From Roseivivax isoporae LMG 25204 (lineage in GTDB: Bacteria > Pseudomonadota > Alphaproteobacteria > Rhodobacterales > Rhodobacteraceae), in NCBI RefSeq assembly GCF_000521865.1, contig NZ_JAME01000021.1, positions 1-64,000 on the forward strand: 64,000 nt of DNA, given 5' to 3'. A program made the translations under genes and the position numbers. The notes beneath the pieces are model-generated. The model was not told where the DNA came from. It did no database searches and was given only the letters and a program-made list of their open reading frames with translations. Within the stretch, counting starts at the first letter, position 1. Every line of letters begins with the position of its first letter. Shown piece after piece: positions 2,393-5,462 of this stretch.

Positions 2393-2650
2393 TCACTGGT
2401 AGCGGCGCAGCAGAGCGTCGATCTTGCCGCTCTTCTCGACGGTGCTGTCCTGCATGTTCGCGATGTTCAGGAGCGTCAGGATCTGGATGTTGGTCAGGCG
2501 CGAGAAGTCGACCTCCTGCGTCGCCAGCCGTTCGATCTTGGCGCGGCTGACCGGACTTTCGGAGGCGGACTGCGCGGCGGCGCCCTGCGCCAGCATGGTC
2601 GCGGCGACGGCAAGGGCCGCGATGCGGGCCGGTCTCGATGCGTTCGTCAT
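2393..2650 (-). CDS. Small secreted single-module protein (unnamed family), divergent member
   Basis: 85 residues with an N-terminal signal peptide: a basic start, a hydrophobic stretch at 10-24 and a likely cleavage after AAA at 24-26. Residues 36-85 align with the mature part of the three identical 77-residue proteins upstream. Shared positions include KI-R near the start, L and QI in the middle, LLN, N, DS, KI and LLR-Y at the end. The SD GAGGAG lies about 7 nt before the ATG. I do not recognise the family. The export signal suggests a periplasmic or extracellular small helical protein. It converges on the mct gene with only 13 bp between stops. Confidence 0.7.
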   Translation of the reverse strand: MTNASRPARIAALAVAATMLAQGAAAQSASESPVSRAKIERLATQEVDFSRLTNIQILTLLNIANMQDSTVEKSGKIDALLRRYQ

Positions 2651-2695
2651 GTCGGCTCTCCTCGTTCGTCGCGTGTGACCCCCGAGATGGGGCAG

Positions 2696-2727
2696 ACGCC
2701 GCCCGCTGCCAAGGGCAGGGGCGGCGT
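2696..2727 (-). terminator. Strong hairpin downstream of the first 77-aa gene copy
   Basis: Nested arms ACGCCGCCC/GGGCGGCGT and CTGCC/GGCAG form a stem of about 14 bp with one bulged G. It lies 35 nt past the stop at 2762 on the minus strand. There is no clear T-run, so it may be a terminator or an mRNA-stabilising 3' structure. Confidence 0.5.
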
Positions 2728-2761
2728 TCGTGATCGGTCGCGTCCCGTGACGCGGGGACGA

Positions 2762-2995
2762 TCAGTTGTAGGCGCGCAGCAGCGACTCGATCTTGGACTC
2801 GGTCTCGCCGCGGCTGTCGCCGCCGTTCACGACGTTCAGAAGCGATGCGATCTGCGCGTCCGACAGGGCCGAGAGGTCGGCATCGGGGGCGTAGCGCTGG
2901 ATCTTCACCTCGGCAGCGGAGGTCGAGGTCATCGCGGAGGCGCCGCCGGCGAGGGCTGCGGTGGCGACGAGGGCGGATGCGATAAGGGTTTTCAT
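2762..2995 (-). CDS. Small secreted single-module protein, tandem copy A
   Basis: 77 residues: a signal peptide of about 21 residues ending ASA, then a 56-residue mature protein holding one copy of the shared module (EVKIQRYAPDADLS, then LSDAQI, LLNVVN, DSR and KIESLL). It is identical in protein sequence to copies B and C. AAAGGA about 10 nt upstream serves as the SD. The short spacer to copy B, mostly a hairpin, suggests transcription from a promoter upstream of copy C. The module is predicted to be mostly helical and is unrelated to any family I can name. Confidence 0.8.
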   Translation of the reverse strand: MKTLIASALVATAALAGGASAMTSTSAAEVKIQRYAPDADLSALSDAQIASLLNVVNGGDSRGETESKIESLLRAYN

Positions 2996-3039
2996 GTCTG
3001 TGGTCCTTTGTGTGCGATGTGATCTGGGAGGTCCGGAGG

Positions 3040-3073
3040 GACCGGCGCCGCCGCGTTGCGCGGCGGGCCGGTC
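3040..3073 (-). terminator. Intergenic hairpin between copies B and A
   Basis: GACCGGC and CCGCCGCG pair with CGCGGCGG and GCCGGTC around a TTG loop, giving 15 bp with one bulged G. It begins 10 nt past the copy B stop and is duplicated as part of the repeat unit. It lacks a T-run, so a partial terminator or an RNase-blocking 3' structure are both possible. Confidence 0.5.
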
Positions 3074-3082
3074 ACGCCGTCA

Positions 3083-3316
3083 TCAGTTGTAGGCGCGCAG
3101 CAGCGACTCGATCTTGGACTCGGTCTCGCCGCGGCTGTCGCCGCCGTTCACGACGTTCAGCAGCGATGCGATCTGCGCGTCCGACAGGGCCGAAAGGTCG
3201 GCATCGGGGGCGTAGCGCTGGATCTTCACCTCGGCAGCGGAGGTCGAGGTCATCGCGGAGGCGCCGCCGGCGAGGGCTGCGGTGGCGACGAGGGCGGATG
3301 CGATAAGGGTTTTCAT
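3083..3316 (-). CDS. Small secreted single-module protein, tandem copy B
   Basis: The middle of three genes encoding the same 77-residue exported protein. It has the same signal peptide, the same mature module and the same AAAGGA SD as copy A, because the duplication includes the upstream 40 bp. It differs from copy A by silent changes, including CTG for CTT at one leucine and a GAA-type change near the middle. Retention of three identical proteins points to recent amplification or selection for dosage. No function can be assigned from sequence. Confidence 0.8.
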   Translation of the reverse strand: MKTLIASALVATAALAGGASAMTSTSAAEVKIQRYAPDADLSALSDAQIASLLNVVNGGDSRGETESKIESLLRAYN

Positions 3317-3360
3317 GTCTGTGGTCCTTTGTGTGCGATGTGATCTGGGAGGTCCGGAGG

Positions 3361-3394
3361 GACCGGCGCCGCCGCGTTGCGCGGCGGGCCGGTC
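3361..3394 (-). terminator. Intergenic hairpin between copies C and B
   Basis: Same 15-bp stem with one bulged G and a TTG loop as the element 321 bp away, 10 nt past the copy C stop. Confidence 0.5.
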
Positions 3395-3403
3395 ACGCCG
3401 TCA

Positions 3404-3637
3404 TCAGTTGTAGGCGCGCAGCAGCGACTCGATCTTGGACTCGGTCTCGCCGCGGCTGTCGCCGCCGTTCACGACGTTCAGCAGCGATGCGATCTGCGCG
3501 TCCGACAGGGCCGAGAGGTCGGCATCGGGGGCATAGCGCTGGATCTTCACCTCGGCAGCGGAGGTCGAGGTCATCGCGGAGGCGCCGCCGGCGAGGGCTG
3601 CGGTGGCGACGAGGGCGGATGCGATAAGGGTTTTCAT
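3404..3637 (-). CDS. Small secreted single-module protein, tandem copy C (promoter-proximal)
   Basis: The first transcribed copy of the three identical 77-residue exported proteins. A longer in-frame reading to 3763 exists, but the start is placed at the ATG shared with copies A and B. It has its own upstream sequence, with AAGGA as SD. Homology to the other copies stops 3 nt before the ATG, so this copy probably keeps the ancestral promoter in the gene-free stretch upstream. Signal peptide residues are 1-21 and the module spans about 29-77. Confidence 0.8.
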   Translation of the reverse strand: MKTLIASALVATAALAGGASAMTSTSAAEVKIQRYAPDADLSALSDAQIASLLNVVNGGDSRGETESKIESLLRAYN

Positions 3638-4118
3638 GTCAGAATTCCTTTTCTCTTCGTGTGGGGCACCGCGAGGTGCGTTTGCGTCTCTCGGCGGTGC
3701 GTCCCGTCGATGGCGAAAAGATTGTTGTTCCCCAGCGACTTCGCAAATCACGGGACGGTTCACGGCCGGTCACGCAGATGTGGACTTGCACGTGATCGGC
3801 TCCGGAGAGCGCGTCGCGTCATTCGCCACAAGTGGCTGTCACGGAACGGAAAATCGTGTATCAACAAAGCACGAGATCGCGTGAGGGCCGTGATGAGAGG
3901 CCCGCCCCGGGGCCGCGCGACCATGCACCACATTTACTGTGCATTTTTGCAAATCGATATTTGAAACAGCGGATCACGGCGCGGTGACGCGCAGTGTTCG
4001 GCAGGTGATGAACCTTTGCCGTCGGAACGGGATCCGGGGGGGCACATCGCAGCGTCGGGACGCGCGGATTCGGGCCTTGAATTCGCCGCCGACGGGCGGT
4101 ATCGACGGCCTCGGCCTT
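3638..4118. other. Gene-free stretch upstream of the secreted-protein array and tRNA-Trp
   Basis: No convincing ORF is present. The left part should hold the minus-strand promoter of the secreted-protein genes, though I see no good -35/-10 pair. The middle (about 3840-3970) is noticeably more AT-rich than its surroundings and includes a CAAAT/ATTTG inverted repeat. The right part leads into tRNA-Trp and should carry its promoter. Confidence 0.6.
3950..3963. promoter_or_regulatory. Inverted repeat CAAAT-N4-ATTTG, possible operator
   Basis: CAAAT and ATTTG flank CGAT, and the outer bases TT and AA extend the symmetry with one mismatch. The site is AT-rich in a GC-rich genome and lies 156 bp upstream of tRNA-Trp. 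It could be a protein-binding site; no regulator can be named. Confidence 0.3.
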
Positions 4119-4194
4119 AGGGGTATAGCTCAGTTGGTAGAGCGACGGTCTCCAAAACCGTAGGTCGCGGGTTCGAGCCCTGCTGCCCCTGCCA
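4119..4194 (+). tRNA. trnW: tRNA-Trp (anticodon CCA)
   Basis: A complete cloverleaf. The acceptor AGGGGTA pairs with TGCCCCT, including one G-U pair. The D-arm has the normal AGCTCAGTTGGTAGAGC. The anticodon stem ACGGT/ACCGT encloses the loop CTCCAAA with anticodon CCA at 4152-4154, and the T-arm holds GGTTCGAGCCC. The 3' CCA is encoded. It reads UGG tryptophan codons and, as in many bacteria, sits upstream of secE. Confidence 0.97.
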
Positions 4195-4291
4195 CTTTCC
4201 AGCGACATGTCGATCGAGGCGCGCCCGCATGCGGTGCATCCTCTCGATGGCCGCGCTCACGGGCGCGGGTCCCGTGCGCCCTGCGCGCACG

Positions 4292-4320
4292 AAAAAGGGG
4301 GCGCGCACTGCGCACCCCCT
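4292..4320 (-). terminator. Rho-independent terminator of the three-module secreted protein gene
   Basis: Read on the minus strand, AGGGGG and GCGC arms pair with GCGC and CCCCCT across a 3-nt loop with one mismatch, followed by TTTTT. It lies about 30 nt past the stop at 4351 and is a textbook intrinsic terminator. Confidence 0.85.
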
Positions 4321-4350
4321 CTCATCTCGTGTCCTTGTGACGCGGACCGA

Positions 4351-4938
4351 TCAGTTCGCCAGAAGCGTCTGGATGCGGCCCTCGGCATCGGCGCGGCTGT
4401 CGGTCGAATAGATGATCGCCAGCGCGCTCGTCACCTGCTCGTCGCTCAGGGTCGAGACATCGACGTCCGGCGCGTAGTCGTTGATGATCGCCACTTCGGC
4501 TGCGGTGGCCGAGTTCATCTCGGAAACCGCGGCGGTGTCGGTGGACAGCAGTTCCTGCACGCGGCCCTGACGGTCGCTTTCCGACATCTCGCTGTTCAGC
4601 GCCACCAGCGCCGCGTCGAGACGTGCCTGCGGGATCATGTCGAGGTTCGCCTCGGGAGCGGCTTCCATCAGCATGGTGCGCTCGGCCTCGGTCAGCTCGG
4701 GCATCGGGCGGGTGTAGGTCTCGCCGTCATAGAGCGCCTGAAGCTGGCCCATCTTGTCCGAACGCGACTCGTCGCTGTTGATGACGTTCATCGCGGTCGC
4801 GACCTGCTCATCCGTCCAGGTGGACACGTCGGCATTCGGCAGGTACGACTGGATCTCGACCATCTCCGCTTCGGTCGCGGCATACGCGGTGCCGGCGACG
4901 GAGAGGGCGAGGGCGGATGCAAGCATGATGCGCTTCAT
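4351..4938 (-). CDS. Secreted protein with three copies of the unnamed module
   Basis: 195 residues with a signal peptide ending AYA at 18-20. Three modules follow at about 25-70, 86-131 and 147-193. Modules 1 and 3 closely resemble the module of the 77-residue proteins: EI/II, a Y then P then D, V-STxxDEQV, an ALAII/AMNVI stretch, then DSR or ESRSD and GRIQTLL/GQLQALY. The middle module keeps the pattern less well, with APEANLD, LVALNS, SDRQGRVQELL. The SD AAGGAG lies 7 nt from the ATG and an intrinsic terminator follows. The family is not recognised. The architecture suggests an exported helical repeat protein built from the same unit as its neighbours. Confidence 0.8.
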   Translation of the reverse strand: MKRIMLASALALSVAGTAYAATEAEMVEIQSYLPNADVSTWTDEQVATAMNVINSDESRSDKMGQLQALYDGETYTRPMPELTEAERTMLMEAAPEANLDMIPQARLDAALVALNSEMSESDRQGRVQELLSTDTAAVSEMNSATAAEVAIINDYAPDVDVSTLSDEQVTSALAIIYSTDSRADAEGRIQTLLAN

Positions 4939-5264
4939 ATCGTTACTCCTTGGTCTCGTATTCTGTGACCCTTCGGACCGGACGCGTCCTGCGACCGATC
5001 CCGGTTCTGGGCAATCAACACGGGCCCAACCGCATGCGTTCCCCGAAAAAACCGCGGTATCACAAAGAGATGAGGAGCGCTGGACGGCGGGCGCCGCCGC
5101 ATTAACTGCCAGCGTTTTTTCTCTTGACGCCTCTCGCGGGAAGCGCGCACGGCCCGGCCCGGGATGCTACCGGTTAGCCGCGCGCCCGCGCGGGACGGCA
5201 GGTCGCGCTTGAACCCGGCGGCACATCCCCGTATCTGCCCGGTCAGAGGAACAAGGTGACACGC
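4939..5264. other. Gene-free stretch between the divergent three-module gene and secE
   Basis: No credible ORF is present. It must hold the minus-strand promoter of the three-module gene and probably a secE promoter. TTGACG at 5124-5129 is a reasonable -35 on the plus strand, but no matching -10 lies at normal spacing, so I do not call a promoter. Confidence 0.5.
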
Positions 5265-5462
5265 ATGGCCCGGACCAATCCTATCCAGTTCGTCCAGCAG
5301 GTGCGCGCAGAGGTCGGCAAGGTCGTCTGGCCGACGCGGCGCGAGGTGCTGCTGACCACGGTGATGGTGTTCATCATGGCGACCCTGACCGCGATCTTCT
5401 TCGCGCTGGTCGATCTCGCCATCCGCAGCGGCCTGCAGGGCATCCTCGGCATCTTCGGCTGA
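5265..5462 (+). CDS. secE: Preprotein translocase subunit SecE
   Basis: A 65-residue single-membrane-span protein of the SecYEG channel. The short cytosolic amphipathic part ends in the SecE hallmark VVWPTRRE, followed by one hydrophobic helix (about residues 29-55). Single-span SecE of this length is normal outside enterobacteria. ATG 5265 is used with AAGG upstream; an in-frame GTG at 5256 with AGAGGA 5 nt upstream would add three residues and is a real alternative. It is followed by nusG in the conserved secE-nusG-rplKA order. Confidence 0.93.
   Translation: MARTNPIQFVQQVRAEVGKVVWPTRREVLLTTVMVFIMATLTAIFFALVDLAIRSGLQGILGIFG

Follow-up and report, generated by a model that had tools for sequence, protein, structure and literature searches.

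An undescribed family of small module proteins, predicted to be exported, in Roseivivax isoporae and other Rhodobacteraceae

Introduction

Near the start of contig NZ_JAME01000021.1 of Roseivivax isoporae LMG 25204 (assembly GCF_000521865.1), a CoA-transferase III gene and secE enclose five genes of the minus strand, with a tRNA-Trp gene among them, and all five encode proteins built from the same short module. The stretch of DNA analysed, called the window below, comprises positions 1 to 64,000 of this contig. The cluster raises the question of what family these proteins represent, and of what it means that one module is present both as a run of near-identical small genes and as three fused copies in a single larger product. 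The analysis described here shows that this undescribed family of small, apparently exported module proteins is real, and its new part is the probable regulation of the multi-module form by an EcfG-type promoter. The function that we propose for the family, protection of the cell envelope, is put forward with more caution.

The module and its family

The preliminary description of the locus had counted five minus-strand open reading frames and seven copies of one module, clustered around tRNA-Trp, and each of these points was confirmed. According to a profile built from five module seeds, the module spans about 44 residues and occurs once in every small protein and three times in the protein of 195 residues. 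The genes, and the promoter motif considered in the next section, are the following (bp, base pairs):

2393..2650, minus strand: divergent single-module protein of 85 residues (open reading frame and module profile; export predicted)
2762..2995, minus strand: single-module protein of 77 residues, array copy 3 (open reading frame and module profile; export predicted)
3083..3316, minus strand: single-module protein of 77 residues, array copy 2 (open reading frame and module profile; export predicted)
3404..3637, minus strand: single-module protein of 77 residues, apparently exported, array copy 1 or leader gene (open reading frame and module profile; three helices predicted)
4351..4938, minus strand: three-module protein of 195 residues (module profile; nine helices predicted; export predicted)
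5017..5042, minus strand: GGAAC-N18-GTT, a promoter motif of the EcfG (general stress) type whose start lies 104 bp ahead of the three-module gene's ATG

The start of the 3404..3637 gene was taken as the ATG at 3637, as in its twins; the listed open reading frame begins earlier, at a GTG.

The proteins of the 2762, 3083 and 3404 genes are identical, and the three coding copies differ at silent sites only. Two repeat units of 321 bp have 317 identical positions, and the third is 85% alike over 300 nucleotides. When the three-module protein was used as a query against its own genome, the three identical genes were found at E values of about 7e-9 to 9e-9 and the 2393 copy only at 0.37; a profile of relatives in which the 2393 copy is itself included matches it at 2.5e-21. 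The motifs YAPDADLS and DSR, at first given as features of the module in general, hold for the identical trio but not for the 2393 copy or for the middle module of the 4351 protein.

All five window proteins look exported, signal peptides having been called by eye and by a loose pattern and not by SignalP. That pattern, [ASVTG]-x-A within residues 14–32, is present in 70 of 70 hand-picked single-module proteins. The mature products, their cleavage sites placed by eye, measure 56 residues with an isoelectric point (pI) of 4.5 for the single-module protein and 175 residues with a pI of 4.05 and a charge of -24 at pH 7 for the three-module protein; that of the divergent 2393 copy has a basic pI of 8.4.

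Searches of Pfam, NCBIfam, PHROGs, PADLOC and the PDB sequences yielded no named family, and no clear match emerged among PDB folds. For the window proteins every listed Pfam and NCBIfam score fell under the curated cut-off; for 26 relatives the best E value was 0.0054 in Pfam and 0.00065 among the 25 of 31 NCBIfam matches listed, and four distant multi-module proteins also scored under the cut-off (best E 5.3e-5). A likeness to the three-helix UBA/CUE domains was considered, but found support in no search. An origin from phages or plasmids was rejected: the one protein tried by tblastn, a single-module protein of Marivita, had no match in either collection, and five proteins compared with PHROGs gave nothing better than E 0.027. 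A role in defence was rejected likewise, the same number of proteins giving only weak matches in PADLOC (best E 0.0078 for a protein of locus L147 and 0.012 for the window three-module protein). No earlier description of the module family was recognised in the literature searched, which does not prove its absence, and the module was not found in the accessible part of a published EcfG table (PMC6599016).

Profile searches of the kind proposed in the preliminary description returned homologues in Rhodobacteraceae, and no Pfam family scored above the cut-off. Among 290 genomes of this family, one per genus, the module proteins are present in 70 by the union of two profiles, the single-module profile matching 64 and a broader module profile 59. 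In a class-level sample of 289 genomes the matches were confined to the own genome and one weak frame (E 5.8e-5), which begins at the module and, by eye, is without a signal peptide. All nine Roseivivax genomes have matches and eight of them the full three-module protein, which is absent from G003; its identity in seven other Roseivivax species is 44–56%. A first whole-genome scan with the 195-residue protein had yielded no relative by its patterns. The ratio of nonsynonymous to synonymous substitution rates (dN/dS, NG86 method) in the closest species pair lies at 0.14–0.18 in the single-module and at 0.20 in the three-module gene, most other species pairs being too distant for reliable values; in some single-module comparisons between divergent copies dN was near or above dS. 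The earlier picture of an unnamed, apparently exported, predicted-helical and copy-amplified family is supported; its homologues are numerous, and there are indications that selection on it is purifying.

Promoter motif and NepR co-occurrence of the multi-module form

One EcfG motif in the literature reads GGAAC-N17-20-GTT (PMC6599016). Over the distinct upstream regions analysed, identical ones being merged and those shorter than 150 bp dropped, GGAAC-N16-18-GTT was found before 20 of 23 multi-module genes, with 7 of 8 inside Roseivivax and 13 of 15 outside it, before none of 111 single-module genes, and in 20 of 3000 random 200-bp pieces. In a first set, which leaves out the two-to-four-module gene of L036, 14 of 15 multi-module genes had this motif within 200 bp, against 0.6% per region in single-base shuffles. 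The promoter-positive genes include distant relatives at L146, L147, L149, L151 and L154, loci that hold neither tRNA-Trp nor secE. The same motif adjoins nepR in five of five Roseivivax loci.

NepR is the anti-sigma factor of EcfG. The corresponding family (PF18557) was found in 134 of the 290 genomes, 132 of them over the cut-off, and in all nine Roseivivax genomes. Genomes with a multi-module gene, defined by at least two matches to the module within a single open frame and with G080 added separately, have NepR in 21 of 22 cases vs 113 of the 268 others (p 5e-7). Among genomes with single-module genes only, some of which may hold an undetected multi-module gene, NepR is present in 18 of 48 (p 4e-6 against the multi-module class), and among those without the family in 95 of 220, a frequency that does not set the single-only class apart (p 0.52). 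The first guess of a stress function thereby gains support for the three-module protein, through its promoter motif and the NepR co-occurrence, but not for the single-module proteins, which have neither. The other two guesses made at the outset, adhesion and binding, have found no support, no test having been aimed at them. The likeness to the EcfG (RpoE2/SigT) general stress regulon of Alphaproteobacteria lies in these same two features; the difference is that the latter is a regulon and not a protein family, and the EcfG dependence of the multi-module genes is predicted from the motif.

The single-module array and its leader element

Of 70 hand-picked single-module copies, 66 have their nearest relative in the same genome, and identity averages 0.90 inside a genome as compared with 0.39 across genomes: single-module arrays are homogenised within genomes. 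Copies are probably undercounted in short-read assemblies, because several arrays stop at contig ends. The genome G084 (L078–L082) has 13 near-identical full copies of a divergent member of 81 residues, six of them in one run and the others close to where further contigs end, which are probably one long array broken by assembly. At L084 of the Roseivivax genome G003, three single-module genes 100% identical in DNA and two divergent ones lie beside tRNA-Trp; a three-module gene and a leader element of the form searched are both missing there. Distant single-module proteins at L161 (3085–3669) and L148 (2949–3475) are found as adjacent differing pairs and not as identical copies.

The elements assigned in and around the array, together with a further site upstream of the three-module gene, are:

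3317..3403, minus strand: spacer separating array copies 1 and 2; it contains a strong hairpin and, by eye, a ribosome-binding site
3746..3788, minus strand: array leader element CAAGnnCA-N7-GTGA-N18-GTGATT, a putative and likely activator site (pattern with 0 mismatches)
5059..5073, minus strand: CenR-like site upstream of the EcfG-type motif (weak; p 0.076 for the single region)

The first spacer measures 28–96 bases in eight arrays. In the window it folds strongly (z -3.0 against single-base shuffles), and its hairpin is not general, because z varies from -3.4 to 1.1 across the eight arrays.

The leader element precedes the leader gene of most arrays, and the window contains only one match to it at up to two mismatches. 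In nine whole Roseivivax genomes the pattern occurs seven times in six genomes at 0–1 mismatch, always at a single-module gene, and four further times at two mismatches (reversed control, one); as the pattern was derived from these same genes, the real finding is its absence elsewhere. In the Roseivivax genomes G003, G005 and G006 the arrays or single genes lack the element. A relaxed version of the pattern precedes 25 of 110 single-module genes, which on inspection are for the most part leaders, and occurs in 31 of 3000 random control pieces, a control that is not clean since the pieces were drawn from array-bearing loci. TGA half-sites in 21 leader regions are spaced by 22 bp 15 times, by 10 bp six times and by 12 bp seven times, with at most about 1 in shuffles, and this geometry suggests an OmpR-type response regulator.

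Two regulators were considered and rejected for the array. Its direct repeats looked CenR-like, but a CenR matrix from the 31 published sites of the TGA-N8-TGA type (PMC9275681) gave a Fisher p of 0.71 over the 21 leader regions. The motifs of ChvI, given as TTGC-N3-GCAA and, for S. meliloti, N-GCC-N8-GCC (PMC9731502), are by eye unlike the leader element. A possible likeness to the CenKR envelope regulon of Rhodobacter sphaeroides is limited to the three-module genes, upstream of which CenR-like sites exceed shuffled sequence in score (12 related regions combined, Fisher p 1.4e-5; single regions, p 0.007–0.50), whereas the single-module leader element does not fit the matrix. The CenR-like site of the window lies about 30 bp upstream of the EcfG-type motif, and similar sites occur in several relatives.

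Possible function

We consider it an even chance that the exported three-helix modules protect the cell envelope, the fused form being a general-stress protein and the array a separately controlled, amplified form. Stress would free the EcfG-RNA polymerase from NepR, upon which the three-module gene would be transcribed; its acidic, helical product would be exported by the Sec route to the periplasm or cell surface and would help to keep the envelope intact. The single-module form would be encoded by a small operon, its near-identical genes multiplied and kept alike by recombination so as to raise dosage; a separate activator would turn it on at the leader element, and the arrays would supply the same module under another signal in an amount set by copy number. 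The module, its conservation, the gene order, the array homogenisation, the EcfG-type motif and the NepR co-occurrence were computed; we infer EcfG transcription, the export route, the periplasmic site, the operon structure, dosage as the reason for amplification and the protective role. Envelope protection appears the most economical role because PhyR of R. sphaeroides is tied to membrane stress in a 2018 paper (PMC5830050), according to which no earlier work had addressed PhyR in any of the Rhodobacterales.

Several observations weigh against envelope protection under general stress control. The EcfG pattern alone is unspecific, with 125 genome matches vs 58 for the reversed pattern and four matches in the window vs 0.85 in shuffles, so that the case for EcfG rests on the position and conservation of the motif. 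Three of the 23 multi-module genes lack it, and in the absence of the motif and of a NepR link from the single-module genes the stress explanation covers the fused form only. The genome G189 (86% complete) has a multi-module gene but no NepR was found in it, and as the genomes are related the p-values above are guides only. The neighbours of seven multi-module and four single-module loci (20 proteins, taken as the largest open frames, some perhaps not genes) include no common partner beyond chance.

Other functions would account for part of these data. The single-module proteins could be secreted antimicrobial or signalling peptides, bacteriocin- or pheromone-like and amplified for yield, with the three-module form as a relative of other use; the small mature size of about 56 residues, the identical copies, the own leader element and the separate regulation agree with this. 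Class II bacteriocins are characterised by a double-glycine leader, a dedicated exporter and an immunity gene nearby. The single-module leader peptide looks, by eye, to be of the Sec type, and a Pfam scan of 24 neighbouring proteins, some perhaps not genes, revealed no immunity or exporter gene. The mature part is moreover without cysteine in 70 of 70 copies, change is purifying and not diversifying, and the same module is fused in threes under a stress-type promoter; we think such peptides improbable. A role as a periplasmic buffer or carrier that binds a metal or small ligand would suit the strongly acidic mature three-module protein and the acidic positions that recur in the module, as well as a sub-threshold resemblance of the N-terminal part of the three-module protein (residues 1–76) to the silver-binding periplasmic protein SilE (NF047789), which is likewise exported and small. 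This score is only 16.9 bits where 200 are required, and the signal peptide is part of the stretch that gives it; EF-hand chains came out at chance level in the PDB profile search (E about 1), the mature part has no cysteine to offer and the 2393 copy is basic, and we think ligand binding unlikely. Little probability is likewise given to a structural protein of the surface or matrix that assembles outside the cell in adhesion or biofilm: it would explain the high dosage, but no anchor or secretion partner was found and no known adhesin family was matched in Pfam or NCBIfam.

Envelope protection can be extended into a more complete scheme, in which an undescribed system confined to the Roseobacter family would use one small three-helix module under two modes of control, as a fused trimer governed by the general stress sigma factor and as a homogenised tandem array that has an activator of its own, the leader travelling with the array to new sites; taken as a whole this scheme is possible and rather less probable than not. 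If it is true, the array would give the cell a means of adjusting, via gene copy number, how much of one periplasmic protein is made. The arrays also offer a clear example from bacteria of homogenised gene copies for a small protein whose export is predicted. To our knowledge, little is known on the output of the general stress response in Roseobacter-group bacteria, and a fused-form family with an EcfG-type promoter across genera offers a direct handle on it.

Gene order and neighbouring loci

The remaining features of the window that bear on the place of the cluster are:

1135-2379: CoA-transferase III gene (Pfam CoA_transf_3 match)
4119..4194, plus strand: tRNA-Trp, a conserved neighbour outside the proposed mechanism
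5265-5462: secE

In Roseivivax and several other genera the common order is secE, three-module gene, tRNA-Trp, single-module array and CoA-transferase; in Roseivivax, Citreimonas, Marivita and others, secE and nusG are found next to the cluster, and the CoA-transferase lies on the far side of the array in Roseivivax, Marivita and others. A tRNA scan of 34 loci found tRNA-Trp in 21, tRNA-Thr in two and no tRNA in 11, at least seven of these 11 having their family match within about 1 kb of a contig end. The two Marivita loci L061 and L064 hold a second single-module array with the same leader element, where the only tRNA is a tRNA-Thr about 7 kb away; L061 is the second array of Marivita hallyeonensis, at a place without tRNA-Trp. 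The clustering around tRNA-Trp noted at the outset is therefore upheld as conserved gene order but not as a functional tie. The place of the cluster is thus inherited, but the array and its leader element can also be found together at other sites, as the second array at L061 shows.

In R. halotolerans (G002:C41, 57274-70136) the three-module and single-module genes are about 12 kb apart, as if separated by an insertion. A sulfate permease-like gene lies near two loci (L154 and L165).

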